From a virus, in IMG/VR virus record IMGVR_UViG_3300013103_000555, positions 1 to 31,753 of that record: a DNA stretch of 31,753 nucleotides; one strand, 5' to 3'. The notes under the pieces were generated by a model. The model did no database searches, was not told where the DNA came from, and was given only the letters and a program-made list of their open reading frames with translations. How positions within the stretch are numbered: position 1 is the stretch's first letter; each line of letters starts with the position of its first letter. Of this stretch, positions 4,101-28,200 are shown one piece after another. The position numbers and the translations under genes are program-made.

Positions 4101-6049
4101 ACACGTCCTGAACCTGACCCCCAAAGAGGTACGTCATGCGAAACACGAACCTTGTCCCCTCTACGGCAGACCAAATGCTCAAAATCCATATAGAGAGAAT
4201 ACATCTCCGGCCTTAATCTTGCCTGCGCAATATGATATCGTCCAAATTTCCAAATCAAATCAGGATTAGTTATACCAGGGAATTCTATTGTTTCAAATAA
4301 TGTAGCATTTTCTTCAGAGTATCCATCATCATAAACAATTCGTTCATCATCCTCATATTCATTATTTTCATTTTTGAATTTGATTCGAAAAGCATGAGGA
4401 TGTTCATAAAGGAGTTTTTTTGAACTAAATCCCCAGGAATTTCGCGGAGTGATATGCTGAACAAGTGTCTGATTTCCTGTATCTGATACAACCGACCAGA
4501 GGCCATCTTTCAAAGTAATCGCTGATCGAGCAGTAGAAGCGATATCCTGACAAGTCTCAAAAACAGAGGAAGTATAGTCCCGATACATATTAAAAGCATA
4601 GCCATTTGTCTCACAAAACTCATAGAATTCTCCAAGCGTAGCATTATCAACCTGGGAAACTGTTCTCTTTTTTGCATTGGCATTGCCTGTCAATACATGA
4701 CGGATTAAAGCAGCAGGATTATTGGTAGGAAGATATTCATTCTCTTCATCCCCCCATGTTTCCGTTTCCGAATCCCATACAGGACAATATGAAGTAACTA
4801 CAGCGTTTAGATTAGAAATCATACCATTTAACTGGTCAGTAGCTTTAATTCGTAATGCAGTTACTGCCAAAGGATAAGGAAAATTAATGGGATATGTTGT
4901 CTTGATACTTCTGAGGTTTGTCCAATAAACCTTATCCATAATTTGCTGATCATCAGTATCAGGGGTCAAACGGTTTAACCTGATTTCATATTGTTTTGTA
5001 TTGTCAACTTCCCAATTCCATCCATATCTGACAGCGGAAGTAGACATATCGGTAAATGTTTTATCTTCAAGAGTTGTCCAAGTTTCGTCCCCTACTTCAC
5101 GATAGCGTACTCTTATCGTGACACTCCGAAACAATCGATGTCCATAATTATCATACTGAACAAGGCCATAGGGGAAACAAATATCCACAGAAATTTCATC
5201 AACGTTTGCTTGGGCAGTTCTATCAACAGGTCCGGAGGCATTTTTCAAAAGCACCCCAACTGTTTCTTGATTAACAGATGATGGGAAAAGAGTTATATCT
5301 GTATCTGTTGACCATCCTTCTCTGGTCTCAACCCTCACATGTTTATATGATGATAAAAGGGTATCGCCTAACTTAATGTCTTCAATTTGCATAGGGCCAT
5401 ACCCCCATACAACAAGAATCCTGAGGTATTCATTCTCCCCCACTATTTCAGTATATGCCTTGGCGCCAAATGCCGGATAAACACGATGTTTCCCGAGGAT
5501 CGTAGGCACTGTCATCCAAGGTCTTTCTGCATTTGTAGGAGTACTTATCGAGTAAGTAGGCGAATCTTCATATTTTTGACTTTTTCCTCCAATTTGCTCT
5601 AATTTGACAGGAGCAATAGCATTAACAAGATATGATCCTGCAGTCATAACTGCCGCGCTAACCAGATAAGAACCCATTAACGATGCGGTGGTATATGTAC
5701 CCGCCGCAGTTAAAACTCCATATGTTGCCAAATACCATTGTCCTGCAGCTATTGCTGCAACTACAACTACTATTGTAAGCAACGTTCGTAAAGGATTTTT
5801 CCCTCCTCCACCACCATGCAAAGGGATATTTATAAGCACATGAGAATCAATGTCAGGGATAATATCCCATTTTTCATAAGGGACAGGCTCTCCATCAATT
5901 TCCACAATTACGGTTGTATTAATATCAGGGTAGAGAATATCAACCATACCGCGAATACTTGTGCCATGCGGGATATAAATTGCTTTTGGAGCATGAAAAG
6001 CTGCGGGTGAAACTATTATTTCCCTATCGTTTTTCATATCTTTGCCCAT
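1175..6049 (-). CDS. Central tail-tip / host-specificity protein, lambda J-like with gpI-like N-terminus
   Basis: This is a protein of about 1,620 residues at the position of lambda gpJ, the tail-tip protein that contacts the receptor. The first ~90 residues are soluble and end in a glycine run (HGGGGGKNP). A Gly/Ala-rich hydrophobic stretch of about 55 residues follows (LLTIVVVVAAIAAGQWYLA), like lambda gpI, so gpI and gpJ functions appear fused. The middle contains the J-type tip core (YLRILVVWGYGPMQIEDIKL, then PNAERPWMTVP upstream). Fibronectin-III-like repeats follow around residues 830-1050 (GYRVRYRVTGESQW). The C-terminus is a beta-rich module with GFNSTPAITVTP. An in-frame TTG lies at 6070, but ATG at 6049 is preferred; ATG at 6037 is also possible. 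It overlaps the NlpC gene. Confidence 0.88.
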   Translation of the reverse strand: MGKDMKNDREIIVSPAAFHAPKAIYIPHGTSIRGMVDILYPDINTTVIVEIDGEPVPYEKWDIIPDIDSHVLINIPLHGGGGGKNPLRTLLTIVVVVAAIAAGQWYLATYGVLTAAGTYTTASLMGSYLVSAAVMTAGSYLVNAIAPVKLEQIGGKSQKYEDSPTYSISTPTNAERPWMTVPTILGKHRVYPAFGAKAYTEIVGENEYLRILVVWGYGPMQIEDIKLGDTLLSSYKHVRVETREGWSTDTDITLFPSSVNQETVGVLLKNASGPVDRTAQANVDEISVDICFPYGLVQYDNYGHRLFRSVTIRVRYREVGDETWTTLEDKTFTDMSTSAVRYGWNWEVDNTKQYEIRLNRLTPDTDDQQIMDKVYWTNLRSIKTTYPINFPYPLAVTALRIKATDQLNGMISNLNAVVTSYCPVWDSETETWGDEENEYLPTNNPAALIRHVLTGNANAKKRTVSQVDNATLGEFYEFCETNGYAFNMYRDYTSSVFETCQDIASTARSAITLKDGLWSVVSDTGNQTLVQHITPRNSWGFSSKKLLYEHPHAFRIKFKNENNEYEDDERIVYDDGYSEENATLFETIEFPGITNPDLIWKFGRYHIAQARLRPEMYSLYMDFEHLVCRRGDKVRVSHDVPLWGSGSGRVKSFTIQSGNITHIILDELIIMEEGKSYACRFRLSDGSSLVLSIVTDPGETDILELQTPVAEESGPKVGDLAMFGEANRETVELLVHSIRRSGDFTAQLFLVDVAPDIYNADTGEIPAFDPQTTPSIDITELPPKPPTIEGTASGKDASTISGGGSVSSLIVYLSAPDNDMRIRGYRVRYRVTGESQWQYTPEMENLTITITPVIEDVEYEIQAQSISVYGVASTWTSIGTGTPATPQLVPAHPTDIAAELVAGGEAYNYCAVHITFTPPPDPVFSHCEVYASNDDIAYHYVGTNSSGSFIFSGLGSVYEAGDTCYIKLRSISIYELAEPAPATYDASVLIEGYIRLGGFYVGEYSFRDNVNADDAKILIDKTNTLIRLGDKTTPYLVLDGDYSGVPAVKSSDYVSGSFGSGFLLKHDLLEVGNIASRGIIRTAVFQKDVVSAVGGNLAVLPADLLNANMSANDSDDGLERLTEAGDTRITEAGDTRILDGYAFLTIEGNETFSVGDILRIKDGAHDEWIRVENTDNAPTYVVTRDLAGNYADGFNPQWPKGASVVNYGQAGDGGIFLTASDTNAPHLSIFTHDGEPWNSITTHIREGNLNGYAGYETDVYGWASYIDVNNYIKVDPVNGIRMSGEIIITGGSGVLNLNDTGALATKNYVGEGDLQSTVLNRMFLNAEVRENIEAWRKAGSPTYIDGEKIYAKTITADKFVSTLYGDINQAMAYVKTVLGAGDEFEYDLTDTDLSNGSATNIDADTHADYGVSIRIATAQEWDDGGEWDTGTWDEPTKSSGSWISSSINFGASRTLQLALRYTKVEENVSSTTETIKFQYSIDGINFGTNAPSFDDGLWETASINRITGNIYKASGNLFTFAHFKVKVELETTSTIDRIILHTMTCLGNVTNLFGMKCNKAIASEGTTIDLKGFNSTPAITVTPIGSTPLVPLITAQSSSSVTIKLYNLSGNAVSGNANITMIGI
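2640..2687 (-). repeat. Tandem 24-bp duplication inside tip gene (ITEAGDTR x2)
   Basis: Two head-to-tail 24-bp units, 2640-2663 and 2664-2687, differ by about one base and encode TEAGDTRI twice in the central tip protein. Such units are common in phage tip proteins and may act as a short linker or beta-turn repeat. Confidence 0.8.
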
Positions 6050-11578: not shown

Positions 11579-12073
11579 TTACCTCACCTTCGCATTTTCT
11601 TTGATTGCATTCAAAATCTTTCCTTTGTTTCGTTTTATTGACGCTACAAAGAAACCTGCACCTGCACCGGGACGTCGGAAATGAGCACCATACATTTCAT
11701 GTACATACACAGCATAATTTGCAGAAAAACCAAAAGCTACTACAGGCCCTTTTTGTGATTTAGCTTGTACTCTTCCAACGACAACTGTTTTCACCGTGGA
11801 ATGTTCGGATGCCATTTTTTCTGCATTCCTCCCTTTGAAATTAGGAGATTTACCTTGTGGTGTTGTTCCTTTAGAAGTAGTAACAAACCAACTCTGCCTC
11901 AAGTTCCCTGTCTCACCAACCGGAATTAGAGGAGACGTCTTATCCATATCACGCCGAACTTCAATTACTCCTTCAATCATACCTTTCAAAGAACGCCCTT
12001 TAATCCCTTTGATTTTTTTATTAAGGTTTTTTACTACTTCCTGGAGGCTTGCTTTTTCTATTGCAGCGCTCAT
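11579..12073 (-). CDS. HK97 gp10-like neck protein
   Basis: 164 residues. The region IEVRRDMDKTSPLIPVGETG followed by NLRQSWFV, the strand YAVYVHEMYGAHFRRPGAGA and the C-terminal helix FFVASIKRNKGKILNAIKEN is the classical layout of the HK97-gp10 family (putative neck/tail completion proteins). The ATG at 12073 overlaps the stop of the degraded endonuclease frame as TAATG. Before the endonuclease invaded, this gene probably followed the 127-codon connector gene directly. Confidence 0.82.
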   Translation of the reverse strand: MSAAIEKASLQEVVKNLNKKIKGIKGRSLKGMIEGVIEVRRDMDKTSPLIPVGETGNLRQSWFVTTSKGTTPQGKSPNFKGRNAEKMASEHSTVKTVVVGRVQAKSQKGPVVAFGFSANYAVYVHEMYGAHFRRPGAGAGFFVASIKRNKGKILNAIKENAKVR

Positions 12074-12536
12074 TATAAGGAAGCCCTCCTTTTAATCCAT
12101 CCCTTTTTTGCTGCTACAGATTTTCTTTGTCGTGTTATTTCTGAATCTTTCCTTCCCATATTAGCTGTAGAAATTCTCTGTCGGTGTTCTATGGAAACAG
12201 GCCCCAGCATTTTACGTCTTATTTCTTCAGAAAAAGGCTTCCCCTTATTCCATGCTACTTGTCCTTTATGTGCTTCTGATAATTTCTTTCTCGTTTCCTC
12301 CGATATTATTCTTCCTTTAGCACTCTTTGACATTTTTAATTTTGTTGCCTCTGAATGTTTCTTACCAAGCATCCCATATCTAACATGATTTAGAACTTCC
12401 TTTTGATGCTCAGAAATAGGACGCCCAGAAAGTGCTTTCCTTATTTTCTCTCTTGTTTCGTTTGAAACCTTTCTTCCTCATACTGTTTCCCATCAATATT
12501 ATTTTTTATACTGTAAACGCCACTTACAAGTAACAT
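12073..12536 (-). pseudogene. Decayed GIY-YIG homing endonuclease with NUMOD3 repeats
   Basis: Two frames together read as a broken intron-type homing endonuclease. The first opens at ATG 12536, inside the end of the connector gene, and gives MLLVSGVYSIKNNIDGKQY, the GVY half of the GIY-YIG motif, then loses similarity exactly where YIG should follow and stops at 12441. A second frame is open from just after a TGA at 12478-12480 down to 12073. It is a string of about seven NUMOD3-like DNA-binding units (SEETRKKLSEAHKGQ, HSEATKLKMSKSAKGR, SEEIRRKMLG). The central nuclease body with the catalytic Arg and Glu is missing, so an internal deletion plus frameshift has occurred. A 99-codon ORF starting at ATG 12372 could still make a NUMOD3-only DNA-binding protein. 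Confidence 0.78.
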
Positions 12537-12899: not shown

Positions 12900-13271
12900 T
12901 CAATCAAATGAGGTTATCGCTGTTATCTTAGCTGACTTTCCGCCAAGTGCTGCCAATTTACCAGTAGTGTCAAGACGAAGACACTGTTGCCCGTATAAAG
13001 TGGCCTCCAATCCTTTTCCTGTCATGCCTTGATAAGTGACATTTGCCCCACCCGCGCCTGCTTTTTGTATTTGTTGTTCTCTCGTTGCCGCCAAAAAATG
13101 TGCAGCGAGCCATAATTCTATGTTACGTTTTAATTCATCCGACAATGTAGTATCAGACCCAAGCACATTAGTAACCACCTCAGTAGCACCAGATATGTAT
13201 GTATCAATAACAAAAGGGTCTAAATCAGTGTCAATAATTTGTGCAACTTCCTCTGCTGTTGTTCGTGCCAT
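12900..13271 (-). CDS. Head-tail adaptor protein
   Basis: 123 residues, MARTTAEEVAQIIDTDLDPF then YISGATEVVTNVLGSDTTLS and IELWLAAHFLAATREQQIQK: an all-helical N-terminal part typical of HK97 gp6 / SPP1 gp15-like adaptor proteins that sit under the portal. The C-terminal part is Gly-rich (KAGAGGANVTYQGMTGKGLE) and ends ITSFD. Its ATG overlaps the stop of the GT9-like gene as TAATG. Assignment rests on length, the helical pattern and the neighbourhood. Confidence 0.7.
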   Translation of the reverse strand: MARTTAEEVAQIIDTDLDPFVIDTYISGATEVVTNVLGSDTTLSDELKRNIELWLAAHFLAATREQQIQKAGAGGANVTYQGMTGKGLEATLYGQQCLRLDTTGKLAALGGKSAKITAITSFD

Positions 13272-14044
13272 TATATACTCCCTTTATTCAACATTTCTAA
13301 CGCCGCTTGACGAACTTCTTCAGGTTTAATCATAGACATTGCCTTCCTGCAATGTTCACAGGGATAATATCTACCACAAGGGGATTCTGGAAGATCAACA
13401 TAGAAGTTCCTTTGGTAAGCATACCCTGTAATCTTCGGATCAGCAAATCCACCGAACACTACCACCGCAGGAGTATTCATACTTGCAGCCATGTGATGCA
13501 TGCCCCCATCAACCGTCATCACCAAGAAAGCATGTTCTACTATACCTGCGGATACCCGAAAGTTCGGGGAATATATCGGGGTCACTCCGGGAAGAATCTT
13601 CGTTTTTCCGTCCGAGTCAAATTGGTACACAGGAATTGGAAAATCCTTAACTACCTCCTCCCATCGCTCAAATCCCCAATTCTTATTTTGACTACTTGGT
13701 TTTCGAACAATAGGCTCTACAATTACAAATGGACTCTCTGGAATCAGACATAACGCTTCAGCTTGTTCTTGTGCAGTTAAACGCATATGACCTGCACGTG
13801 CACGATACTTTATGTCCCATATAGTTGTCAGACCTGGGTTACGACTCCATCGGAGAATACACGGACGAGCAGAAGGTCCATCAATAATATGCAACGGAGA
13901 GTTGCTATCCACTGCAGGATGGTTCTCCCATATCACATGCTTCCGTGGATTGCCACTCACGCCATAGACAGCTACGGGTTTCCCAAGAATGGAATAGATT
14001 GCTTCTGCCCTTCCCAAAGCCATTATTTCATCACCATAACCCAT
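13271..14044 (-). CDS. GT9-like (heptosyltransferase-type) glycosyltransferase
   Basis: 257 residues. The start MGYGDEIMALGRAEAIYSIL is the glycine loop and first helix of GT-B family 9 enzymes. The C-terminal donor-binding part TVDGGMHHMAASMNTPAVVV followed by FGG at ~177-199 is the family's most conserved motif, and a late CGRYYPCEHC cluster resembles the Cys motif seen in GT9 relatives. These enzymes transfer heptose-like or other sugars from a nucleotide donor. The protein is shorter than cellular heptosyltransferases (~320-350), so the acceptor domain is reduced. No signal peptide. It sits in the head operon between the FkbM methyltransferase and an adaptor gene, so a virion or host-surface target is possible. 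Confidence 0.78.
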   Translation of the reverse strand: MGYGDEIMALGRAEAIYSILGKPVAVYGVSGNPRKHVIWENHPAVDSNSPLHIIDGPSARPCILRWSRNPGLTTIWDIKYRARAGHMRLTAQEQAEALCLIPESPFVIVEPIVRKPSSQNKNWGFERWEEVVKDFPIPVYQFDSDGKTKILPGVTPIYSPNFRVSAGIVEHAFLVMTVDGGMHHMAASMNTPAVVVFGGFADPKITGYAYQRNFYVDLPESPCGRYYPCEHCRKAMSMIKPEEVRQAALEMLNKGSI

Positions 14045-14060
14045 TTTTTTTATTATTCTC

Positions 14061-14741
14061 TCATGCCCAACTTAAAATGTAATCTCCCTGTATCCCTCTG
14101 CGCTGAACTGCACCTAACGCCTTTAAATAACCAATGGCCGCTGTGCTGGATATACCATATCTCTTGAAACCACCAGTCTCCGGCTTCTGCTCTACAATAA
14201 TGCAAGGCTTGTGTTTTAAGAGCAATTCCTTCATCCCTTGCAAGACAAACAATTCAAACCCTTCACAATCAATTTTAATGAAATCAATACTTCCTTCCGG
14301 AAGTCCCAAATCATCTAAACGGAACATCAAGGTTTCCTGCGCGCCTTCTACTTCTTCTACATCAACACTGGTATCCCCAGAAGAATCTATTGTCCTTGTA
14401 GAAAGATAGGCCCTTCCATTGTAATTTCCTAAAGCATGTCGCACCAAAATGGCATTTTCCGCCTGTACATTCTTTTTCCAACAATCAACATGAGGAATCA
14501 TCGGTTCAAATGCGATAAGTTTTTGAAAATCCTGAGACATATAATACGACCATGTTCCGATATGTGCCCCAACATCAATACAGATATCCTTTGATGATCT
14601 GATATATGGAAAACATGCTTCATATTTATGAAACTGATAACTCTTTCTCCCCACAACTTCCTTATTTACTTTTAACATCCACTGTATCATGTGTTTTTCT
14701 TTATCAGGAAACCACCATCCTGTTCTCTTGGAAAATTTCAC
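14061..14741 (-). CDS. FkbM-family SAM-dependent methyltransferase
   Basis: 226 residues. The SAM-binding motif I is DICIDVGAHIGTWSYYMSQD (~52-71), followed by the acidic strand LIAFEPMIPH. The FkbM signature IDFIKIDCEGFELFVLQGMK lies at ~152-171, ending CIIVEQKP. FkbM enzymes O-methylate sugars and small molecules and are frequent next to glycosyltransferases. The start is GTG at 14741, overlapping the previous stop as GTGA and preceded by AGGGAGG, so translation is coupled. Together with the adjacent glycosyltransferases it may cap a glycan by methylation (inference). Confidence 0.88.
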   Translation of the reverse strand: MKFSKRTGWWFPDKEKHMIQWMLKVNKEVVGRKSYQFHKYEACFPYIRSSKDICIDVGAHIGTWSYYMSQDFQKLIAFEPMIPHVDCWKKNVQAENAILVRHALGNYNGRAYLSTRTIDSSGDTSVDVEEVEGAQETLMFRLDDLGLPEGSIDFIKIDCEGFELFVLQGMKELLLKHKPCIIVEQKPETGGFKRYGISSTAAIGYLKALGAVQRRGIQGDYILSWA

Positions 14742-15682
14742 ATTTCCCTCCCTATTCTATCCCAACACATTCCTGATGCAATCTCAAACAATGTCCATTG
14801 ATTAGCGCAAAGATTTAATAACCATTCCCTTCTGTTTCTCGGACACATAGGATTCTCAATGTCCTTCAATGGAGTGGATAATGGAAATGCCCCGCAAACA
14901 TCAGTGGTATGTACAGGTATTCCTGCAATAAGAGCATCTACTGCTACATTGGAAAATGCAGTAACCAGAAACCAAGTATCTTTTAACGCTTCTGTCAAAG
15001 ATGTCTTATCATGGCGTTCCCTAATTACAATTGGCCTATCTGTGTATTTCTTCACCTGCTTAATGATTTTCTTCTTCCACGTAGTAGCAGAAAACCCAAA
15101 CAAACGAGCAATACTAATATCAGGAGGACATATCAGAATGTTTCTTCCTGTTTTTCTCCAAGGTTTCTCTACTATCTTACAGGTATCCAATCGCCTTTGA
15201 TTCTCTTCTGTCTCTTTGTACCCATCAGTCTGAATATATGCTATCTGATAAGCATTACGAGTCACCCGAAAACTTCTACCCCTGTTGAAATAACCATGAT
15301 CACCATAATACCAGTCAAAGCCCAACTTCTGAGTCTGCCGCAAACCTGACCACGTCACTGGTGAACCAAATCCTGCCCAAGCTCCTAATTGATATGCGCA
15401 TCCTTCCACTAATCTACCACCACTGCCTTTTGCAAATGCCCTTGCAAAGCGAGGTGAAGTTTTTTCATTGGGAACATAATATATTTTCAAGCTCTTCATA
15501 GAAAAAAGATTTGTGAGTACCTCATGAACAACAGAAACTATCTGCTTCCGAAATGCCTTTGGCAAATCCTCTTCCACAGCACGAAAGATTTGATTTGGCT
15601 TTATAATCTGCCCTCTCCATCGAAGGGAACCACCACCTATCTTCCGCCATTTCTTTTCTACTGATATAGTATCACGATCCAT
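14738..15682 (-). CDS. Capsule-type glycosyltransferase-like protein with capsid-associated N-terminal module
   Basis: 314 residues in two parts. Residues ~11-50 (KWRKIGGGSLRWRGQIIKPN, then QIF and AFRK) closely repeat residues ~10-50 of the small protein encoded at 16382-16741. Residues ~65-314 look like a GT-B type sugar transferase related to capsular-polysaccharide enzymes: LGFDWYYGDHGYF, a strand-helix RNILICPPDISIARLFG, then RPIVIRERHDKTSLTEALKD, and FSNVAVDALIAGIPVHTTDV as the likely donor-site loop. The last ~45 residues carry Trp/Cys-rich helices. It overlaps the upstream gene by 11 bp. Glycosyltransferase fold is likely; substrate unknown. The fusion suggests the enzyme is directed to the same partner as the small protein. 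Confidence 0.65.
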   Translation of the reverse strand: MDRDTISVEKKWRKIGGGSLRWRGQIIKPNQIFRAVEEDLPKAFRKQIVSVVHEVLTNLFSMKSLKIYYVPNEKTSPRFARAFAKGSGGRLVEGCAYQLGAWAGFGSPVTWSGLRQTQKLGFDWYYGDHGYFNRGRSFRVTRNAYQIAYIQTDGYKETEENQRRLDTCKIVEKPWRKTGRNILICPPDISIARLFGFSATTWKKKIIKQVKKYTDRPIVIRERHDKTSLTEALKDTWFLVTAFSNVAVDALIAGIPVHTTDVCGAFPLSTPLKDIENPMCPRNRREWLLNLCANQWTLFEIASGMCWDRIGREM

Positions 15683-16385
15683 CCAATGCTTCTTTTAATG
15701 TAATCATCGGAAAACAATCTATCTTACTAATAGGACTGAGATTGTATATTTCTATTCCCAAATTATTTGCGTCCCTTGCTATCGCCGGGAATCCTTTTAA
15801 ATGCTTTTCAAATGGAGGAGAACGTTTTGCCTTTTGCCCCGGAGGCATATGGGAACCATGCCAATGACTATACGTTTTTTTAACATCCATAGTCATATCA
15901 AAGCCCAACAGATTTATTCTACGTACCCCCAGATGATGTGCCAAACTAATAGCTGCCGCTCCGGAATTTACATTCCAAGAAACCTTCGAAGGATCAGAAG
16001 TTATCCCTTCTCTCCTCCCTTTATCACGTTCAAGAAATTTAATACCTTCCATCTTGTTCCGTGGACGATTTGCAAATTTTTGATCGCAACATACTTTCAA
16101 TCCAGGCCACTCCGCCAACTTTATACGATGTTTCAAATACCAATGGCTATCACCAAAGAATAGAATATCAATCCACGTTCCAAGCTGATATGCATTATTG
16201 ATACCTATTACATGCCGATCATGAAGAGGCCTCATGTAATCAGAATACGCCAAAGGGGAAAGTCTTCCATCATATACTTTCCGAATCACCTCTAAAGGAA
16301 CTCCAAATTGTTGAGGTACAGAAGTCCCACCTCCAATTATCCAACATGTAGCATCTTTCCATAATTGAGGAACAGACCAAATCAT
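15672..16385 (-). CDS. MptE/DUF115-like Rossmann protein, possibly sugar transferase
   Basis: 237 residues. The N-terminus has the glycine-rich loop CWIIGGGTSVPQ (~14-25), then HVIGINNAYQLGTWIDILFF followed by GD, and later VNSGAAAISLAHHLGVRRIN with LLGFDMTMD. This order (GGGxS loop, asparagine-rich N/NxxY, NSG, GxD) resembles the DUF115/MptE-like fold and the GT42 sialyltransferase-like fold, both of which bind nucleotide-activated substrates. YSHWHGSH has several His that could be catalytic or metal-binding. It starts at ATG 16385, overlapping the upstream stop as ATGA. I cannot decide between a pyrophosphokinase-like and a sugar-transferase role. Confidence 0.5.
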   Translation of the reverse strand: MIWSVPQLWKDATCWIIGGGTSVPQQFGVPLEVIRKVYDGRLSPLAYSDYMRPLHDRHVIGINNAYQLGTWIDILFFGDSHWYLKHRIKLAEWPGLKVCCDQKFANRPRNKMEGIKFLERDKGRREGITSDPSKVSWNVNSGAAAISLAHHLGVRRINLLGFDMTMDVKKTYSHWHGSHMPPGQKAKRSPPFEKHLKGFPAIARDANNLGIEIYNLSPISKIDCFPMITLKEALDGS

Positions 16386-16741
16386 ACATTTAATTCCTCC
16401 ACTAACTGTTTAGCAGCATCTTCTCGAAGGCCCTTCTCATTGATAACCTTACCAGAAACAGAATTAACTACATCCCACCATCCACTGGAAGAACGCTTCT
16501 GTATCTTGTATACTTCCTCAGTATCAGTAGAAGTCTTCCTTTTACGAGCTGTAAAAGGCTGTACAGGTTCAATTATTGTCTCCGGAATATCTTCCAATGC
16601 CACTACATGCTTGCGAAAGGCAAGAGGAACTTCTTCCGGTCGTGCGATAAAAATCTCATTTGGTTTGATAATCTTGCCACGAATATACCGGAGGGAGCCC
16701 CCGCCAATCTTTCTCCATCGGATCTCATTACTTTCACTCAT
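16382..16741 (-). CDS. Small capsid-associated protein with WRKIGGGSLR module
   Basis: 119 residues from ATG 16741, with AGGGG six nt upstream; a GTG one codon earlier is also possible. Residues ~9-50 form the shared module (RWRKIGGGSLRYIRGKIIKP, NEIF, PLAFRK). The middle is Lys/Thr-rich (TARKRKTSTD). The C-terminus SSGWWDVVNSVSGKVINEKG followed by LREDAAKQLVEEL has the look of a second small domain common in short proteins next to phage capsid genes. It follows the major capsid gene by 32 bp, so a minor head or decoration role is likely, though not proven. The N-terminal module recurs in the glycosyltransferase-like protein two genes on. Confidence 0.6.
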   Translation of the reverse strand: MSESNEIRWRKIGGGSLRYIRGKIIKPNEIFIARPEEVPLAFRKHVVALEDIPETIIEPVQPFTARKRKTSTDTEEVYKIQKRSSSGWWDVVNSVSGKVINEKGLREDAAKQLVEELNV

Positions 16742-16773
16742 CACAATCCCCTATGTTGTTTATCAAAATCGAC

Positions 16774-17865
16774 TTACGCTGCGAGCAACACAACCCCACA
16801 ATTACCATCCTGATCCGAGCGAATCTGAGGAACCTGAATGGTCAAAACCTTATACTTCGTTATAAACTTGCCTTCAGTTTGCCACTCAACATTTTGAATA
16901 GGCATACCTCGTACTAACCGAACAACATCACTTGTCATCTGTACAAGTAGCACGTGATTTGCCGTGAGGGTATCCACTACCTTGACATCCTTGATTCTAT
17001 CTATCTTTAAAATTCTTTCCCTAATGGTAATCCCCGGAGTCGTAGAATTATAATCCTCATCCAATACCGTTTCATACGCAGTTGGAATATACAACATCCA
17101 CGGACCATAATGCTTCGCATCAATGCTGGACTGTTTCATATTTAAGACGTCCGCCAAAATCTGAGCAGCCGTCTTCCCTGGAGCATCCCAATTTGCACTG
17201 AGGGTTACGCTGTTAATATCGGGATAATTAAGATAGGAGTAAATCTTATTCCTGGAACGATCATCCGTAGTACCCCAAGCATAATCAGTATCCGTGAACA
17301 GCATCGATTCCAATTTCTCATTGACCTTACGGGCTGCCCTCTCAGCAGAAGTGGTATCTAACGGATTCCCTAACTTTCTACTGGCCTCAAGTACCCTTGC
17401 GTTGATTTCATAATCAACGTGGATTATCGGAATCGGAAGATAATTTGTTTGATAAACAGGACGATCCCCCCTACTTCGGGAAACTCCGTCCATCGTCAAA
17501 TCAGCTTCCATAGCATCCGACACATCGTGCCATTCAAGTACCGTGGTCCCCATTGCATTACCGAGGTCATACGTCAAACCATTTGCAATGAGATCCGCAA
17601 TACCATTCAAACGGGTTTCACTCACCTTGAGGACAGCGTCATCCAACTGTTTCCATTCATCCCTGCGCAATGTAGCAGCATTTATCTGTATAGCTTTGTA
17701 GTTTTTGGGATTCTTTATATCCCCACCTGTGTATACAGTAACATAAGCACGCCCGTCTTTACCAAGCCACGGACGCATATTACCAAGGTTTAATCTTCCT
17801 TCACCTGCCATATATGCCGCCACGTCACCATATACTTGTCCATTTCCCAGTATTACATCAATCAT
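16774..17865 (-). CDS. Major capsid protein (HK97 fold)
   Basis: 363 residues beginning MIDVILGNGQVYGDVAAYMA, preceded by a strong GGAGG site. The middle PIPIIHVDYEINARVLEASR, KLGNPLDTTSAERAARKVNE and KLESMLFTDTDYAWG is the spine helix and P-domain pattern of phage major capsid proteins in the group sometimes mis-annotated as encapsulin- or DUF2184-like. The end VEWQTEGKFITKYKVLTIQV followed by PQIRSDQDGNCGVV is typical. No long N-terminal scaffold (delta) domain is present, consistent with the scaffold being part of the separate protease protein upstream. It forms the icosahedral shell. Confidence 0.85.
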   Translation of the reverse strand: MIDVILGNGQVYGDVAAYMAGEGRLNLGNMRPWLGKDGRAYVTVYTGGDIKNPKNYKAIQINAATLRRDEWKQLDDAVLKVSETRLNGIADLIANGLTYDLGNAMGTTVLEWHDVSDAMEADLTMDGVSRSRGDRPVYQTNYLPIPIIHVDYEINARVLEASRKLGNPLDTTSAERAARKVNEKLESMLFTDTDYAWGTTDDRSRNKIYSYLNYPDINSVTLSANWDAPGKTAAQILADVLNMKQSSIDAKHYGPWMLYIPTAYETVLDEDYNSTTPGITIRERILKIDRIKDVKVVDTLTANHVLLVQMTSDVVRLVRGMPIQNVEWQTEGKFITKYKVLTIQVPQIRSDQDGNCGVVLLAA

Positions 17866-17887: not shown

Positions 17888-18346
17888 TTATATAACTCTG
17901 ATTTTGATTCTACCACTCGGATCTTCACCGGAAGAACCTGACATATCTACTGCCTCAAGTGCTATTCCGACTACAGAATCAGGGTATGTAGCACTCCCTG
18001 CAGATTCTGCATCGGCTTTTTGGAGATAACCATCCCCATGTGACTCCAAAATGTCACCAATCGCCACATTTTCACCATTGGCAAGGAGGGCATATACCTG
18101 ATCACCTCTACCGGCAACCCAGCACTGTACCTGATCACCTGCGGAATAGTCATCATCAATCCCTTTACCCTCTAATTCATTTTCAAGGGCAAAAATCTTC
18201 TCCGCAAACTGTCCGGCACTACCATGCTTCTGCACTTTCCCCGCACTGGTCAACTCTACAAGCATTCCAGGGGTAATTGCAGCTACGGCCTCATATTCCT
18301 CTACAACATCAGAGTATTTCTTCAATTTGATCGTATTTTTCGCCAT
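17888..18346 (-). CDS. Structural cement / head decoration protein
   Basis: 152 residues. The protein starts MAKNTIKLKKYSDVVEEYEA and has the run AAITPGMLVELTSAGKVQKH, then DDYSAGDQVQCWVAGRGDQV, YALLANGENVAIGDILESHG and DSVVGIALEAVDMS. Such SH3-like beta barrels (cement gp24-like) bind capsid surfaces and are encoded immediately before the major capsid gene. A strong AGGAGG site precedes ATG 18346. It probably trimerises at capsid three-fold sites (family knowledge). Confidence 0.75.
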   Translation of the reverse strand: MAKNTIKLKKYSDVVEEYEAVAAITPGMLVELTSAGKVQKHGSAGQFAEKIFALENELEGKGIDDDYSAGDQVQCWVAGRGDQVYALLANGENVAIGDILESHGDGYLQKADAESAGSATYPDSVVGIALEAVDMSGSSGEDPSGRIKIRVI

Positions 18347-18371: not shown

Positions 18372-19895
18372 TTATTTATTTTCTGCATCAACCCCAGGTG
18401 GGAGGAGAATTTCCTCATCCGTATTTACAAAAAATCCATCAGCCGCCCCTTCATAAGAAACAGGTTTCTTGATGGAATCCGCTGTTCTTTGCAGATCATC
18501 ATCATCCTTTTTCTTTAAGGATTCTTCATCCCACACCTTCTCAGCCTGATTATTCAGAATATGCTGAATCAACTCTTGTCGATGAGCGTCATACAACTTC
18601 TGTCCATAATTGAACTGTTTCTTCAATTCATCAGGCAAAAGTTCTCCGAAAATCTTGATATCAGAAACCTTTTCTTTTAGAATTTTCATAGCTGCTTCTT
18701 CGTTAATCTGAGGAGCTTTTTTCTTTAATTCTGCAATTTCACCTTCCAAAGCAACAATTCTTTCTTCCGCTTTCGCCTTTTCTGCTTCTACTACCTCTTT
18801 CGTTTTGGCACAAGTGATTAGCTTATCAACCTGTTCCTCTTCCAGTTTCTCTAACCACCCCTTATCATCCTCGGTATATACCGATGGAGCAATGGTCAGA
18901 AGCTCTTTTACTTTTTTCATCGTAGTATCTCCTGTATTGTTTTTTGTTTGTTTCATAGTTACCACTTTTTTGTATTTTACTTCTTTTTCTATTTCCTCTT
19001 CTTCATTACCAAACTGCACCTCCCCGTCTTTGATTTGATATGTTCTCTTATAATATTTCTCGCCCGCTCCTCGTACATCTCGCCTGTAAATGAAAGTACC
19101 ATCATCATAAACCTCTTCAAGATAGTATGAATCCGTATCGCTATCTAAGGAGTAAAGTTTATCCCTTACCAAATTTATTGCTTCCAAAAGCCCTTCTGTG
19201 TTCACTCTTATGCCACAACCATCTTGCCAACTACATGCACCAGTAGCTTCCGGTAACAAAGCAAGATGATCCGGACGATAGTTTCTCGCAATAGCCGTGT
19301 AGCTTTCTCCTCCCCATTCACCGGTAGTAGGTTCATCATCTGAAAAAACGCCAACACTGACATCTAACGGCTTCTGTTGCATAATATAGGCGTATGCCAA
19401 CGGAGATAGTTGTTTTAACTTTTCTGCATCTGCCCAAACCTCCCCTTTTAACTTACCTCCTTCCATCTTACTATTATATACCCTACCAATCACTGACTGA
19501 TCAATGACTTTTGGAGAATTAGCAGATATTGGCTGACCATTTTCTTCCGGGTGACCGATTAACACCGGTATTCCATTCCATGCCGATGGAAACTTACCTA
19601 ACTCATCTTGAGTATGGAGCAACGGCCCCGCACTGCCATTATGAACACCTTCCTTAAGCATTATTACAGGAACTACCAAGTGTTTCACACCTTGGTGCAT
19701 TTCGGTTCTAACTACATAATTGTTAGTTGTTATTACCTTGTATTGTTGATTCTTCATTCTATTTCTCCATTGACTATAACATATGGCTGCCCGTTGTTTG
19801 CTATCCGGGTATTCTGTATTCATCAAATCATTTCCCATGCACCTGGAAATAAAAGATTTCTCGTTTTCCCTATCAAGCGGAACTGGCAACGGCAT
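18372..19895 (-). CDS. Prohead protease fused to scaffold (DUF2213-type)
   Basis: 507 residues with three parts. The first ~50 (MPLPVPLDRENEKSFISRCM, then PDSKQRAAICYSQW) form a small conserved N-terminal domain frequent in phage head proteins. Residues ~55-230 are the DUF2213-like maturation protease: LKEGVHNGSAGPLLHTQDEL, NGIPVLIGHPEENGQPISAN, ERVYN-type strand VIGRVYNSK and PLDVSVGVFSDDEPTTGEW with candidate His and Ser catalytic residues. Residues ~340-507 are charged, helical and coiled-coil rich (EEQVDKLITCAKTKEVVEAE, IVALEGEIAELKKK), as in internal scaffolds. It would direct capsid assembly and then cleave. The start overlaps the end of the HNH endonuclease gene by 23 bp. Confidence 0.8.
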   Translation of the reverse strand: MPLPVPLDRENEKSFISRCMGNDLMNTEYPDSKQRAAICYSQWRNRMKNQQYKVITTNNYVVRTEMHQGVKHLVVPVIMLKEGVHNGSAGPLLHTQDELGKFPSAWNGIPVLIGHPEENGQPISANSPKVIDQSVIGRVYNSKMEGGKLKGEVWADAEKLKQLSPLAYAYIMQQKPLDVSVGVFSDDEPTTGEWGGESYTAIARNYRPDHLALLPEATGACSWQDGCGIRVNTEGLLEAINLVRDKLYSLDSDTDSYYLEEVYDDGTFIYRRDVRGAGEKYYKRTYQIKDGEVQFGNEEEEIEKEVKYKKVVTMKQTKNNTGDTTMKKVKELLTIAPSVYTEDDKGWLEKLEEEQVDKLITCAKTKEVVEAEKAKAEERIVALEGEIAELKKKAPQINEEAAMKILKEKVSDIKIFGELLPDELKKQFNYGQKLYDAHRQELIQHILNNQAEKVWDEESLKKKDDDDLQRTADSIKKPVSYEGAADGFFVNTDEEILLPPGVDAENK

Positions 19896-20799
19896 TGTTT
19901 AGTCCTCTGGTATTTGTATTATTTACGTAATTTAACAAAACACCACTCAATATCATACCATGATCAGCGTGATTATGACATTTCCTACATAAAGTAATCA
20001 TATTCTTTTCCGTATTACTGCCCCCTTCTCTCACGGGTACAATATGATGCACATCCATATAACTTGATTCCCCTTTGTACCCACAGTAAGCACACGTATA
20101 ATTATCTCTCTTTAAAACTTTTATACGGTTACGATAAAAACTACCCTCATTTTGAGAAAGCATGTAAGAATAAAAACTACCCCCGCCTTTCCATAATGGA
20201 TTCTTTTCTCCAGTCCTTTGACTCATAGCATCATATTTACACTTATCTGAACAATATTTAGCAGTTTCCTTTCTCCTGAAAGGAACTTCAAATTCTTTAC
20301 CACACATTTGACATTTAACCAATACATAATTTTTATTCCAAGGTTCTCTTCCTTTAGTAGCATCATGATAACACTTTTGAGAACAATATTTTCTGCCTTC
20401 TTTCAATTCCCTATAACTTAACTTAAACTCCTTTCCACAATAAGTACAAACAGCATACAAACAATTTGGGCACACTTTTGCATTGGGAGCTTTTGATTGG
20501 AAAGTTTTGCCACAATAAGCACAAACCAAAGTATACCTCCGTGATTTACACTTTTTATTTTGTTGAAGTGTTCTACTTATTTTCTCCTTAACTTCATCAG
20601 AGCGTGGTGGTAAAAACATTCCCTTATTCCATGTTGGACGACCTTTCAAAGACATGCTAATTCTTTCCCTCGCTTCCTTCGTTTGATGAAAGTGCTTCTT
20701 TGTAAATATATGTTGGCACTTACGAGAACAAAAGACCCTCTTGCTATAAGCAGATTGAAAAGTTTTGCCACACTCTTTACATTTTAATACAAACATCAT
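19873..20799 (-). CDS. Free-standing HNH homing endonuclease with zinc ribbons and NUMOD3
   Basis: 308 residues from ATG 20799 (ATGATG, overlapping the upstream TGA). An N-terminal zinc ribbon CKECGKTFQS...FCSRKC is followed by NUMOD3-like units (ARERISMSLKGRPTWNKGM and DEVKEKISRTLQQN), then three further Cys-Cys ribbons (CAYCGKTF/CPNC, CTYCGKEF/CSQKC, CQMCGKEF/CSDKC). The C-terminus holds the HNH nuclease: RDNYTCAYCG, the DVHHIVPVREGGSNTEKNMI core with HH and N, and TLCRKCHNHAD. Such enzymes cut intron- or gene-less alleles and spread by homing. It sits between the head morphogenesis and protease genes, adjacent to an intein-containing gene. It looks intact. Confidence 0.88.
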   Translation of the reverse strand: MMFVLKCKECGKTFQSAYSKRVFCSRKCQHIFTKKHFHQTKEARERISMSLKGRPTWNKGMFLPPRSDEVKEKISRTLQQNKKCKSRRYTLVCAYCGKTFQSKAPNAKVCPNCLYAVCTYCGKEFKLSYRELKEGRKYCSQKCYHDATKGREPWNKNYVLVKCQMCGKEFEVPFRRKETAKYCSDKCKYDAMSQRTGEKNPLWKGGGSFYSYMLSQNEGSFYRNRIKVLKRDNYTCAYCGYKGESSYMDVHHIVPVREGGSNTEKNMITLCRKCHNHADHGMILSGVLLNYVNNTNTRGLNNAVASSA

Positions 20800-22946
20800 T
20801 TCTCCTTCTTCACGGGGATTGCGCAACATCTGCAATTATGAACAATCACACCCTTAGCTAAGTAAGATTCATCCTCTTCTACACTGAGATTATACAATCT
20901 ACGATTTTTACGGAGTTTCCAATGTTCTATTTTCTGTATAGGAAAGGAAACAAATTCATACTGTCCAGAATGATTCATTACTACACGAGATAATTCTTCT
21001 TCTATCTCTCTCAAACATTGATTAATCTTTGCACCCGTATATCTAAGAACAAACCATCCTTCCTGTTCTATCCGTCTTTGTCTAATAGCATCCTTTTCCT
21101 TGTCTTGATGCCATTGTTCCCCATCACACTCAATCACTATCTTTAACGCTGGAATAGCAAAATCAACATTATATCTCAATATAGGGTATTGAAAAACATA
21201 ATCAATATTCATCTTATCCAATAGTTTCGCCATTCTCTCTTCAATCCAAGTCTTCTTCCCACTCTTCCTGTATTTTGCCATCCGTGCATTCAACCGTTTC
21301 TCAGGATGTTTTTCCAAATATTCATTGAGAGAAATTGTAGCCTTCCTCCTTACCGCAGGATCATACATTGGATTTTTCTTTTTCATTCTTTCAGAAGATG
21401 CTTTTCGCATTTCTGGAGTATTGGTAACCTTCTTATTTTTTTCTCTAACATCTGGGCGTGCTAAGGGACATCTACCTTCCTTAGCCATCTGTCTTGTTTT
21501 AATGTGGGCTGCCTTTGTTATTTCCTTTCCATCTCTCATTCCTGTTGCATATTGTTTCAACATAGATATTCTATTCTTTGCAGATACATTTTTTCTATGT
21601 TTCGGATCTGCCCATTGTCTATCTGTTATATCTTTACTTAAACAACTCTGAGAACAATATTGTTTAAAATAAGGAATCAAGGTCTCACAACGCTTACATC
21701 TACTCGCCAACAACTGTATCTGGTCTGTTTTCTTTACCTTCCCTGCTTCTTTCCAACGAGAAAAGGAACATCCTTCCTTTGTAATTAAAACAGGATGATT
21801 GGCTGTCATAGAAAGACCACCTTGCCCCATTCCCAATACAGAGAAACGAACAACTTCTGTTTCGTCTTTGTATCCCTTATTGCGTGGCAAAGCATATACT
21901 TTTCTAAATCTACCTTTATGTGTTAAAACGTAATCCCCAATCTGAATATTTCCTATTGGCTTCCATCCAGTTGATGTATAAACAGGAGTTTGAGGGTCAA
22001 GAAAACAATTCGGGTGAACAGGTATTTTGTTCTGTATCTCATCCAAACTAAACACCTTTCCTTCAAGCGCAGCACATATAGGGCATACTTTGTAGCCTGC
22101 AGTTGTAAATTCAACCTGTACCACAACTCCTTCCACAGCCCAATTTTTCATTTCTTGGACATTAGCTTGATGGAAACTCCTGATTATTTCTGTCCGTGCT
22201 AAGGTCCGTGCTCTCCTCTCCGCCGGAATGAATCTTCCCAATATATCTGTTATTCCTAAATCTCCTACGGGTCCGGATATTGTTTTGGTTAGCAACCTCG
22301 CAAGCTCTCTTGGATTCTTTCCATCTGCAATTCCTTGTGAAAGCACCCGGCTTATCTGGGTGTCCATCTGGCTTGTAATGCCTTTTAGCTCCTGAAATGT
22401 TCTGGAAAACAATAAACCACATCTTTCTATATGGAAGGGGGTTGCCATACTTGCAGATATTCCACCAGTTTCTAACAAAGAAGGCACTTCATATCCAGCT
22501 CTTTTCATCTCCCACCGTGCCCTCTGAACTCCTCTTTGGTATGAATCCTTGATATATTTATTCGTCCATGCTGTTTCGATTGAAGTGCCTATCTGCTGCA
22601 TTGTTTCTACTTCAAGGATTCCCTTTGCTTCTTGTCCCTGTAACCAGATCATAAAGGCATTAACTTTCTCTTCAGACCGAGGGAATGCAAAAGCTTTTCT
22701 GCCGGGGAGGAAAAGATCAAAAGTTGCCATAGTTGCCACTTGATGCTCTTTATCGAGCATATCGAAACAATCCTGTTCTATAATGGCTCTGCGAATTATT
22801 CCTCTCAATGCCCGGAATCGTTTATTCAGGTCACGAACAAAAGCATTTCTCAGGTGGGTTGTTCTGGTAGGGTCATACTGCGAAACAGCTACTGCTTTCT
22901 TTCTCTGGATAACAGGTATATCTATCTTTCTGGCTGGAAGTCCCAT
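20796..22946 (-). CDS. Phage head morphogenesis protein (SPP1 gp7 / Mu F-like), intein-containing
   Basis: 716 residues as encoded, about 325 after splicing. The extein begins MGLPARKIDIPVIQRKKAVA and has the SPP1-gp7/Mu-F signature in ERRARTLARTEIIRSFHQAN, then FTTAGYKVCPICAALEGKVF and, after splicing, VHPNCRCCAIPVKKEK. The HPNCRC zinc-type motif is the most conserved element of the family, which binds portal and enters the prohead in small numbers. I chose ATG 22946 with GAGG 12 nt upstream; TTG and ATG codons at 22970-22958 overlap the previous gene. An intein occupies 20835-22007. The stop overlaps the HNH gene start. Confidence 0.88.
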   Translation of the reverse strand: MGLPARKIDIPVIQRKKAVAVSQYDPTRTTHLRNAFVRDLNKRFRALRGIIRRAIIEQDCFDMLDKEHQVATMATFDLFLPGRKAFAFPRSEEKVNAFMIWLQGQEAKGILEVETMQQIGTSIETAWTNKYIKDSYQRGVQRARWEMKRAGYEVPSLLETGGISASMATPFHIERCGLLFSRTFQELKGITSQMDTQISRVLSQGIADGKNPRELARLLTKTISGPVGDLGITDILGRFIPAERRARTLARTEIIRSFHQANVQEMKNWAVEGVVVQVEFTTAGYKVCPICAALEGKVFSLDEIQNKIPVHPNCFLDPQTPVYTSTGWKPIGNIQIGDYVLTHKGRFRKVYALPRNKGYKDETEVVRFSVLGMGQGGLSMTANHPVLITKEGCSFSRWKEAGKVKKTDQIQLLASRCKRCETLIPYFKQYCSQSCLSKDITDRQWADPKHRKNVSAKNRISMLKQYATGMRDGKEITKAAHIKTRQMAKEGRCPLARPDVREKNKKVTNTPEMRKASSERMKKKNPMYDPAVRRKATISLNEYLEKHPEKRLNARMAKYRKSGKKTWIEERMAKLLDKMNIDYVFQYPILRYNVDFAIPALKIVIECDGEQWHQDKEKDAIRQRRIEQEGWFVLRYTGAKINQCLREIEEELSRVVMNHSGQYEFVSFPIQKIEHWKLRKNRRLYNLSVEEDESYLAKGVIVHNCRCCAIPVKKEK
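20835..22007 (-). mobile_element. Intein in head morphogenesis protein, with Vsr/DUF559-like nuclease
   Basis: 391 residues, from Cys of CFLDPQTPVYTSTGWKPIGN to Asn of YLAKGVIVHN, followed by Cys+1 of CRCC. Splicing blocks are present: A (Cys1, GDYVLTHKG), B (SMTANHPVLITKEG with TxxH), F (LYNLSVEEDESYL) and G (penultimate His, Asn). Between them are a zinc-ribbon (CKRCETLIPYFKQYCSQSC), NUMOD3-like basic repeats and a PDDEXK/Vsr-like nuclease near TWIEERMAKLLDKMNIDYVF with NVDFAIPALKIVIECDGEQW-H (Asp, Glu-x-Asp, His). The nuclease is not LAGLIDADG. It splits the HPN|CRC motif. All key residues look intact. Confidence 0.92.
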
Positions 22947-22947
22947 G

Positions 22948-23685
22948 CTATAACACATCCTCATGTTCAATCAAACGCATTGACAATGATATATTATTAT
23001 CCGCCGCCGATTTATCAGTAAGACGTACAATATACTTAGTATTCTTCTTCAATATCGTGTATTTTGCCACTCCCACAGTTCCACCAACATCAAATTTGGT
23101 ATTACCCCCGTCCTTACCTGTTCGCTTCCAATATATCTTAGTACCATCACTTGTTCCGCCACTCTGTCCCTTGTGAATTGTGACCATAGAATCATTTGAA
23201 GAGTTTCTGTTTCTATTTACTATTGTTTGAAGAGTACTACCTACCCTATCACCACCCTCATACACTTCAAGTGATCCTGCACCATCACCAAATATAACAG
23301 TCAAATCAAAATATATCTTTAGATCTGAATTTGGTGTGGTTAGTAAATAATCTTGAGAAGCACTGGCACCAAGAGGAGCAAGTACATCGTGATAATAATA
23401 ATCCCTCCCCGCTGAAACCTGAACACTCTCTTCAGTAGAGATTACCAAAGAACCATAACAACTACACAATCGCAAGAATTGGTACGTCTCATTAGATGCT
23501 TGGTACCCTTTGATAGGAACTCCAGGATTAAACTTCTCCACCCAGTGTGTCCCATCATAGGTCATCATCATTCTTCCGGTATCACGCTCATAGATAGTAG
23601 AGCCGGGAGCCATACCCGAAGGTTTAGGATCTGTAGATAATCCAATACGATGCTGCACCTCTATTATCTTACTGGATAAAGTCAT
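22948..23685 (-). CDS. Structural head-associated protein of unknown family
   Basis: 245 residues, MTLSSKIIEVQHRIGLSTDP, then MAPGSTIYERDTGRMMMTYD followed by GTHWVEKF and a beta-rich remainder (YLLTTPNSDLKIYFDLTVIF, GVAKYTILKKNTKYIVRLTD). The PG-S-x-Y-x-x-x-TG-x-x-x-x-YDGTxW pattern is common in virion surface proteins. No catalytic motif. Its ATG overlaps the portal stop as ATGA. It sits between portal and head morphogenesis gene, so a minor head or decoration role is plausible; I do not recognise a named family. Confidence 0.6.
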   Translation of the reverse strand: MTLSSKIIEVQHRIGLSTDPKPSGMAPGSTIYERDTGRMMMTYDGTHWVEKFNPGVPIKGYQASNETYQFLRLCSCYGSLVISTEESVQVSAGRDYYYHDVLAPLGASASQDYLLTTPNSDLKIYFDLTVIFGDGAGSLEVYEGGDRVGSTLQTIVNRNRNSSNDSMVTIHKGQSGGTSDGTKIYWKRTGKDGGNTKFDVGGTVGVAKYTILKKNTKYIVRLTDKSAADNNISLSMRLIEHEDVL

Positions 23686-25246: not shown

Positions 25247-28200
25247 CTATCTATTAAACAACATCCCTGCCCGTTTTTTCTTAGTCAAAAAATGGAAAGC
25301 CATAGAAAAAGCATCTGTTTGATCTTTATAGGTACTAAATGGAAAATTTCGTAGTTCTTCTGTAAAAGTAAAATTCCAATCCCCTCGTAACATACTGACG
25401 TTCCCATTGTTAACCTGTACGCTTACAGGGTCAGCCCGAAATGCCTTATCCCCGGTAGGACGCTCTGCCAAGCAATTAAACCCTGCCAAATTTCTTATTG
25501 TGGCCTCTGCTGATTCTTTCCCACCTGATCCCGGTTCCTGCTCTATAACAATGGAAACATCCCTTCCATCAGCTTCCGCCGTAGTACGAATAATATTCTC
25601 CCGCTCTTCACTACTCCATTGTCCACGAACAACATCTACAACAATATATCTTCCTGAGGAGTACCTATATAATTTTAATCCTACCGTATAAGCCCCTCCG
25701 CCAAAAGTCCCTGCTTTATCCCATGCCCGTACCATTCCAGTAAGATTGGTAGGTGACGGAAGATTTTCTACTACAGAAAGCATAGCTACCTTGAACATAC
25801 CTCCTTCCGGTGATGTAGGAGATTGACCAATCTGGCTAGAATATCCATATTGTCCCAGATCCGCTTCCATATCCTTCAATACATCCCAACTCATACGTTT
25901 TGGGTCTAAAAGATCATCCACATAATTTTTTGCAAGACTATCTGGCTTTAAACTTTTTCTGTAATTACGAATTTCACCCGGCAAACTAATATGTTTAAGA
26001 TTAGCTTTTTGTTTGGCAAGTAGATGTCCAGATGGATCGCTATTGTGTAGCATAGTTAATCCCACTAAAAAATCATGTGTAGGCGTTGTAATATCATAAA
26101 CAGCACCAATATAGTCTTTTTCCAAAATATCCAATATTTTAACATAAAGATAACCATCTTTAATTTTATTTACCGTCTTTTTAGTATAAGCTATATCAGC
26201 AAGTCCTATTTTCCAAAGTTTAGCATCTATATCTTTTCTTGCAACTCTTAACTCGTAAGGATTATGTTTCCCTTTTATTCTTCTTCCTTTACCGGGCCCT
26301 GTTTTAATAATACATGGTTCAATGGGAATTTTACCCTTATAAATAGATGAAACAATACCAATTTGTAACAGCAATCTTTGTATTCCTGTAAGTAATTCAA
26401 CCGATATTGAAGTAAACCGTGCATAATTACGAGCGATACAACCATCTCCAAGCCAATATCCTTTAATGAACTGCTGAATATACTCAATTGGCAACGACAA
26501 CATCCATTCCGGTATTTTTTTATTCTTAGCACCTATACCAAACATTTCAAAAAATAAAGCAAGTTGATAAGAAACACAAAAAAGAGTAAATGAATTATTT
26601 TTATCATCTGTTATTGTTGGGTTAAATCCATATTTTTTTAATATATTTACAGCATCTACTATCAATTTTCCATCTTTATTTCCAAAAGAAAAACGAACAG
26701 AATTATTTATTTTTCTTCTTCCCCTCACCAAACTACCTTCAGCCACCCAATACCCTACTAATCTCCAAAAATCAGGATCAAGCAGTAAATCAGATTTTAC
26801 AGTTAGTGCATTTTTCCTTACAATTTTGTATTTTGCTATGTACAAATCTATCATTTGTCTTGTTGCAAAACCAAAATAATCAGCCATTTGTTTACTAGTC
26901 CATCCACCATCGACAAGTTTTTTTAATTCTATATAAGGAACTCGCTTTTCATTCCCATTAAATGTTTGTTTTATTGTTTTTGGTGTTTTTTCTTTATATG
27001 GTAAAGCAGGCCACAACTTTTTTATTTCAACAGCTGTCTTCTTTTTTTTATTTGGTAAAGGAAATAACAATACATCTCTTTTAGTTAAATCCCCAGCATT
27101 AATCCATCCTTTTGCCGTATATACTCTATGATTAGCTGTTAACCATGGAATTTCAGGATGTCCACTAACTTTTAATCCTATTATTTTACCTTTATAAGGT
27201 CTGTTATTTATTGCCAATACATTTTGCCATCCACCGCTTGTTAAAACTTTTTCCCATCGTTTTATATTTATTACTTCAGTAAATCCATTCTGTGTCCATA
27301 TCCTTGTATTTGGATGTAGACATTCATGGAGTCGTTGCATAATCATGATAGTTGGTGTGATTGATTTATCGATCTTTCTGGTAGATAATGTTTGATCAAT
27401 CCATCTGTTCGCATTTGCAAGTTCTATTGTGCTTGCTGCCCTATTGGGGTCAAGAGGATCATCAACTAAAAGTATATGCCCATGGAATCCTGTTAGGGTA
27501 CCGCCGACTGACGTGCTGTACCTATTACCGCCTAACTCTATTTTTCCCTGGGATGTTTTGATAATCTTGAAATTAGATTTAGTATCTTTATCCTGCTTGA
27601 TCGTGAGCTCAGGAAATAACCGCTTGAATTTGCTCGATCTTATCAAATCCCTACTGTACTCGGCAGACTCCAAAGAAAGGGCTGATGAGTAAGAAGCTGT
27701 GATGAATCTCATCCAAAACCAGTTAATCCAACACCATACAGGGAACATAATCATGAAGGTTGTTGTATTATGTACCACAACACCATCAATTATAAAACTA
27801 TGCCCAGCACTTACAGTCAAACACCTACAAGGCAATAATCCACATTGGTTTACCTCTTTAACAATATCAGGCCAAAATTCCTGCTCAAAAGTTTTCTTTT
27901 GTGGAGAGAAACCCTTCAGTTTCTCAAATTTATACCCTTTAATATCCATTCTTTCAAGAAATCTACTAGCTGTATCCTGGTCTGTGCTTTCCACTTGATA
28001 ATATTTATAATTCGTTAATCCCCGATTATATGCAAAGCCTTTCTTCTGCATTCTTACCCTCAATTTCATAGCAATACCAAGACGTAAAAAAAGTCTTTGC
28101 AACCCAATTGCCAATTCTTTTGAGATAGTAGTCATGGATATTAAAATATTTCTTTTTCCCTTGTCCCGATATGATATGCACCCATCACAATGGAAATAAG

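Follow-up and report, generated by a model that had tools for sequence, protein, structure and literature searches.

A virus record from IMG/VR raises the question of why a small protein, encoded directly downstream of the major capsid gene, should begin with the same module as a glycosyltransferase-like enzyme of the same operon, and of what such a module might bind. The window is the whole stretch of DNA that was analyzed, 31,753 bases in length, and coordinates refer to the whole record.

A module shared by two proteins of one capsid operon

The genes concerned, and the parts of the two proteins that carry the module, are listed in order of transcription.

17888..18346, minus strand: head decoration-like protein (phrog_766)
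16774..17865, minus strand: gene for the major capsid protein, lying just upstream of the module protein (DUF6260, phrog_771)
16382..16741, minus strand: small protein bearing the module, 119 aa, the next gene downstream of the major capsid gene; ATG at 16741, in-frame GTG at 16744
16592..16720, minus strand: module copy 1, WRKIGGGSLRYIRGKIIKPNEIF...AFRK, in the small protein
16511..16591, minus strand: linker of the small protein, P/T/S/E/K-rich and probably disordered (pLDDT about 53-60, residues 51-78)
16385..16510, minus strand: C-terminal domain (C-domain) of the small protein, strand, strand, helix by structure prediction
15672..16385, minus strand: "ST," a transferase-like protein between the two module genes; profile match to PHROG 4603 (annotated alpha-2,3-sialyltransferase), E 1.4e-33
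14738..15682, minus strand: module-tagged enzyme, 314 aa, comprising module, short variable linker, and GT-B type body
15530..15652, minus strand: module copy 2, at the enzyme N-terminus
14741..15493, minus strand: enzyme body "CT," with a KpsC/WbbB transferase fold
14061..14741, minus strand: FkbM-type methyltransferase, a cassette gene (E 6.4e-16)
13271..14044, minus strand: glycosyltransferase family 9-like (GT9) protein, the final cassette gene (E 7.6e-8)
12900..13271, minus strand: head-tail connector position by conserved order, closing the variable slot

The initial annotation had read the two N-termini as one domain of about 40 residues, and this was borne out. BLASTP aligned the 119-aa small protein and the 314-aa enzyme with 29 of 46 identities (63%, E 9e-16), the similarity ending at around residue 50 in each and defining a common N-terminal module of ~41 residues. 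The local alignment score was 141, against no more than 52 in 1000 shuffles of the enzyme. The record holds these two copies of the module and no third. At the DNA level they are 61% identical and their longest exact match is 9 bases, which rules out a recent DNA repeat as the source of the similarity and points to an old duplication whose protein sequence has been held by selection. The small protein was also placed correctly beside the major capsid gene, with the module at its N-terminus.

Across related loci, the operon runs in the order protease-like gene, decoration gene, capsid gene, module protein, ST, a slot of 0 to about ten genes, and head-tail connector. Among the genes in the slot are those for sulfotransferases, glycosyltransferases of families 2, 9, and 11, methyltransferases of FkbM and other types, and GDP-mannose dehydratases. 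The window carries CT, FkbM, and GT9 there, and one related locus (L066) carries none. In two further contigs, ST is fused to long unrelated transferase bodies in the same slot (L085:7571-10465, 965 aa; L090:8319-11249, 977 aa).

In the predicted structure of the small protein (mean pLDDT 75), a folded beta domain at the N-terminus is joined by a low-confidence linker to a C-terminal beta-hairpin plus helix. In the enzyme model, the module forms a separate, confident beta domain ahead of the two-domain body (mean pLDDT 88, pTM 0.76). Neither the sequence nor the length of the small-protein linker is conserved. Of the small module proteins, 79 have the C-domain, and it is missing solely in L210 and in two proteins cut by contig ends; it is absent from all fused enzymes. 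Structural matches to the module were all weak (best VIA Z 4.3, to a GINS domain; SH3 rows 2.2-2.8; Foldseek E of 0.77 or above), and no known binding fold emerged for it from VIA or Foldseek.

The enzyme body had been described as a capsule-type transferase, a label that is correct at the level of fold. Foldseek matched CT to KpsC (E 1.4e-7), and VIA-align against KpsC, WbbB, and KrkA gave Z scores of up to 12.4, with an rmsd of 4.6 over 221 residues, where unrelated GT-B rows scored about 7. CT has the two-Rossmann GT-B type fold of these enzymes, and its overall two-domain architecture is that of KpsC (GT107), WbbB (GT99), and KrkA (GT140). QXXXD is the nucleophile motif, invariant in retaining beta-Kdo transferases (PMC10148158), and (K/R)XHP is their CMP-binding motif (PMC12887879). 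KpsC, WbbB, and KrkA carry both, whereas CT has neither as a conserved motif: among 42 family members, QXXXD has no conserved instance at an aligned position and (K/R)XHP is absent from all 42, the start of the C-terminal domain reading CPP, CPQ, or CPN. The residues invariant in the family are D128, Y131, R139, S244, G254, and P256. Because the two motifs are missing, a retaining beta-Kdo transferase (GT99/GT107/GT140) is ruled out as the identity of CT, and we describe it as a transferase of KpsC-type fold with donor and mechanism unassigned.

Distribution of the module and of the enzyme cassette

Used as a query against viral contigs, the module yielded 48 loci. To survey post-capsid genes, we took the 80 best among 470 relatives of the capsid protein. 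Of these loci, 77 extend more than ~200 bp beyond the capsid gene, and in every one of them the next gene encodes a module protein; the remaining three end within 177 bp of the capsid gene. These counts are of contigs rather than lineages, some near-identical strains being among them. Five loci (L227, L258, L261, L262, and L263) encode two different module proteins, one after the other in tandem, between capsid gene and ST. Of 27 records reaching up to 74 kb in length, 21 contain one copy of the module and six contain a second, solely as an enzyme fusion; none of the 27 has a copy outside this capsid operon. Many unrelated module-bearing proteins lacking any link to capsids would have spoken against the initial annotation, and they were searched for and not found.

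Beyond these contigs, two scans of species-representative cellular genomes confirmed no relative of the module, and 50,697 records of cultured phages gave no significant match. Brevundimonas phage MaInes has a capsid protein 35% identical to that of the window, but a different post-capsid protein. Scanning 40 small module proteins against Pfam and PHROG returned scattered weak matches, PepSY among them, with no consistent family, and sequence searches of the PDB with module, enzyme, and enzyme-family profiles returned nothing significant. A search of the available literature for such a cassette or module found no paper describing either. On the sequences surveyed, the module is a domain not described before, linked to a single capsid family and put to a second use as a tag on enzymes, and the phages carrying this capsid-module operon are an undescribed group.

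CT is spread more widely. At least 216 relatives occur in viral contigs, and among the best 80, which we inspected, five belong to the window's clade and the module is absent at the other 75 of 75 loci. Many of the module-less relatives sit in the gene order ST-CT-FkbM-GT9, and the genes near sampled CT loci include those for major head proteins and for head-tail adaptors belonging to several other families. The same four-gene run recurs in L106-L141, where the sampled neighbors include several major head protein families. A similar gene run follows a tail gene in Caulobacter phage CcrColossus. Judged by gene order and neighbors, ST-CT-FkbM-GT9 is a mobile glycan cassette of head operons. Because CT relatives elsewhere lack the module and lie in other capsid contexts, the cassette travels and the tag was added in the window's group.

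Fusion of the module and exchange of enzyme bodies

A search for other module-bearing enzymes in phages, as the initial annotation had suggested, did find fusions, all within the window's clade and with four kinds of body. The module tags CT enzymes in the window, L064, L068, and L062, a 705/717-aa protein with a Capsule_synth match in L067, L065, and L036, and ST2-FkbM fusions in L024 and L038. In L063 it is internal to a 767-aa fusion that runs CT-module-ST2-FkbM, whereas in the small proteins and in the other nine of the ten fused open reading frames it is N-terminal.

Two lineages of the module are combined with two unrelated bodies in all four possible ways. At the nucleotide level, the window and L067 are 87% identical in the module and 39% in the body, and L068 and L065 are 76% and 44% identical, respectively; conversely, the window and L068 share 62% in the module and 79% in the body, and L067 and L065 share 66% and 90%. 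The breakpoint of body exchange is the end of the module. Fused modules cluster together, with weak support, so that the simplest history is a single fusion event and then exchange of bodies. A single origin of the fused modules is probable, and the four bodies should therefore not be counted as four independent fusions. In L012, a CT enzyme of the same type, with a body about 80% identical, has had its module deleted, so that the tag is dispensable for persistence of the enzyme, at least there.

Fused modules are 54-76% identical to one another, whereas the tail before them and the linker after them are 8-33% identical, and dN/dS is about 0.1 for pairs with unsaturated dS. These values indicate that purifying selection maintains the module while its flanks drift. 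WxKxGGGS is invariant across the fused copies, which points to a common surface. Elsewhere, the N-terminal stretch of a 952-aa cassette protein (L087:9815-12643) weakly resembles the module, scoring 6.6 against a control maximum of 3.1, and is possibly a second, independent fusion; a search for relatives returned none.

A candidate docking role for the module

The reading that we favor, at a probability of about one in two, is that the module is a head-docking domain that would bring exchangeable glycan enzymes to assembling virions. The module would be a small folded domain native to the protein encoded next after the major capsid protein, and its target would be the head during assembly, with the capsid lattice or prohead as the likeliest site. 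In the usual form of the small protein, a flexible linker and C-domain follow the module, and the C-domain would probably recruit the neighboring ST, so that the small protein would act as an adaptor linking glycan enzymes to the head. One branch has a module copy fused straight to a cassette enzyme, as a shortcut that would need no adaptor. Later recombination at the module end swapped the body among the KpsC-fold CT, the 705-aa capsule-synthesis-like protein, and ST2-methyltransferase fusions. Virion proteins would be the glycan acceptors. As every new body would retain the address, virion sugars would be changeable by one cassette exchange.

The partition of roles draws on one natural deletion and on the distribution of the C-domain. 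In L210, a 74-aa protein consisting of module and tail lies between the capsid gene and the connector (4289-4525); ST, the cassette, and the C-domain are all gone, and the module is intact. Its retention there argues for a partner of the module in the head, and together with the C-domain distribution it suggests that the module is directed to the head and the C-domain to ST. L210 is one isolated example, and the deletion there could be fortuitous. The constant position beside the capsid gene also fits a partner elsewhere in the head, and the partner could be another head or glycosylation component. The initial annotation had proposed a docking module or a shared binding partner. The genomic side of that proposal fits well, with the module present in 77 of 77 post-capsid loci, absent elsewhere in the records searched, kept in L210, and conserved through exchange of bodies; binding to the virion is the part that we infer.

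Three other explanations account for portions of these data. The module could be the assembly domain of a glycosylation complex, binding ST or another cassette enzyme, with the small protein as a regulatory subunit of ST. In accordance with this, ST immediately follows the module protein in 70 of the 71 loci long enough to tell, and a 499-aa fusion places an ST-like domain after the module, mirroring the gene order. Yet L210 has kept the module after losing both ST and the cassette, and ST is found without the module in Pseudomonas phage D3 as well as in dozens of further head operons; we regard such a complex as a somewhat unlikely function for the module.

That the fused module has no docking function on the enzyme, being a by-product of cassette exchange that served as an upstream recombination arm or supplied a good start region, would explain why breakpoints match the module end, why many CT relatives lack it, and why one relative has lost it. 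We consider this unlikely, given that the fused module is in frame, under purifying selection, and better conserved than the segments on either side, and that in L063 it sits inside the fusion rather than at a start. We hold it very unlikely that the small protein is itself the glycan acceptor, glycosylated on its linker, with the enzyme's module forming mixed oligomers with that of the acceptor. The S/T/P/E-rich, low-confidence linker would suit such a role and the tandem module genes would fit self-association, but the linker varies in both sequence and length, and the L210 protein, which lacks the linker part, was kept after the cassette was lost.

Returning to the head-docking reading, its scheme resembles known virion addresses and is a member of neither of the two classes closest to it. 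Tailspikes and depolymerases have conserved N-terminal anchor domains and exchangeable catalytic bodies, and a virion-docking domain that is kept while the enzyme behind it is swapped between relatives is similar to the scheme proposed here. Those proteins, however, are structural enzymes of the tail or head-tail region, whereas the tagged enzymes here are GT-fold proteins of a capsid operon. The capsid targeting sequence of T4 is a short N-terminal address on several head-associated proteins with divergent mature parts; it is about 10 residues long and is cleaved off by the head maturation protease, can bring foreign enzymes to the head, and has been proposed as a route for various proteins into heads (PMC9026906). 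Both it and the module, if the latter does target the head, are addresses on divergent proteins. The T4 sequence is a propeptide of ~10 residues, whereas the module is a folded domain of ~41 residues, and the module-tagged proteins are transferases encoded in the head operon, unlike those of T4. A tentative extension of the docking reading is that this folded, exchangeable head-address domain delivers transferases to the inside or the surface of proheads. The phage could then rewrite its capsid sugar coat by an enzyme swap, or could even carry the enzymes in the virion, as T4 carries Alt.

Phage-encoded glycosyltransferases glycosylate capsid and tail subunits in mycobacteriophages (Freeman et al. 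2023, as cited in PMC12619734 and PMC11256854). There, phage-encoded transferases act on capsid subunits, as the tagged enzymes here may; unlike the phages described here, the mycobacteriophages, as those two papers cite the reports, come without a shared capsid-operon docking domain. Phage D3 has the same gene order as the window, with capsid gene (orf6), small protein (orf6.5), PHROG 4603 transferase-like gene (orf7), and head-tail adaptor (orf9), and it lacks both a fused enzyme and a cassette. Its orf6.5 (PHROG 7993) was ruled out as a homologue of the module, with hhalign probabilities of 0.2 and 1.2. If correct, the docking reading would physically connect the assembly of phage heads with the glycan enzymes that phages encode, an issue unsettled since the reports of glycosylated phage virions, and would account for the large transferase cassettes lying between capsid and connector genes. 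It would also supply a naturally occurring, modular domain for capsid docking, about 41 residues long, that accepts cargoes of 250-660 residues.

Elsewhere in the window, a Mu F-like minor head protein (20796-22970) is split by an intein with a DUF559-type nuclease part, and the same gene is uninterrupted, encoding 333 aa, in a near-identical strain (L003, 557-1558). The large terminase reads as a 1280-aa open reading frame (25247-29089) with two apparent inteins, from intein splicing and LAGLIDADG matches, the first of which adjoins the ATP-binding loop. Homing-endonuclease-like open reading frames also lie among the structural genes at 12073-12372 (NUMOD3) and 19873-20835 (HNH); the near-identical strain is without the NUMOD3 frame at the first of these places and has a different short open reading frame at the second.
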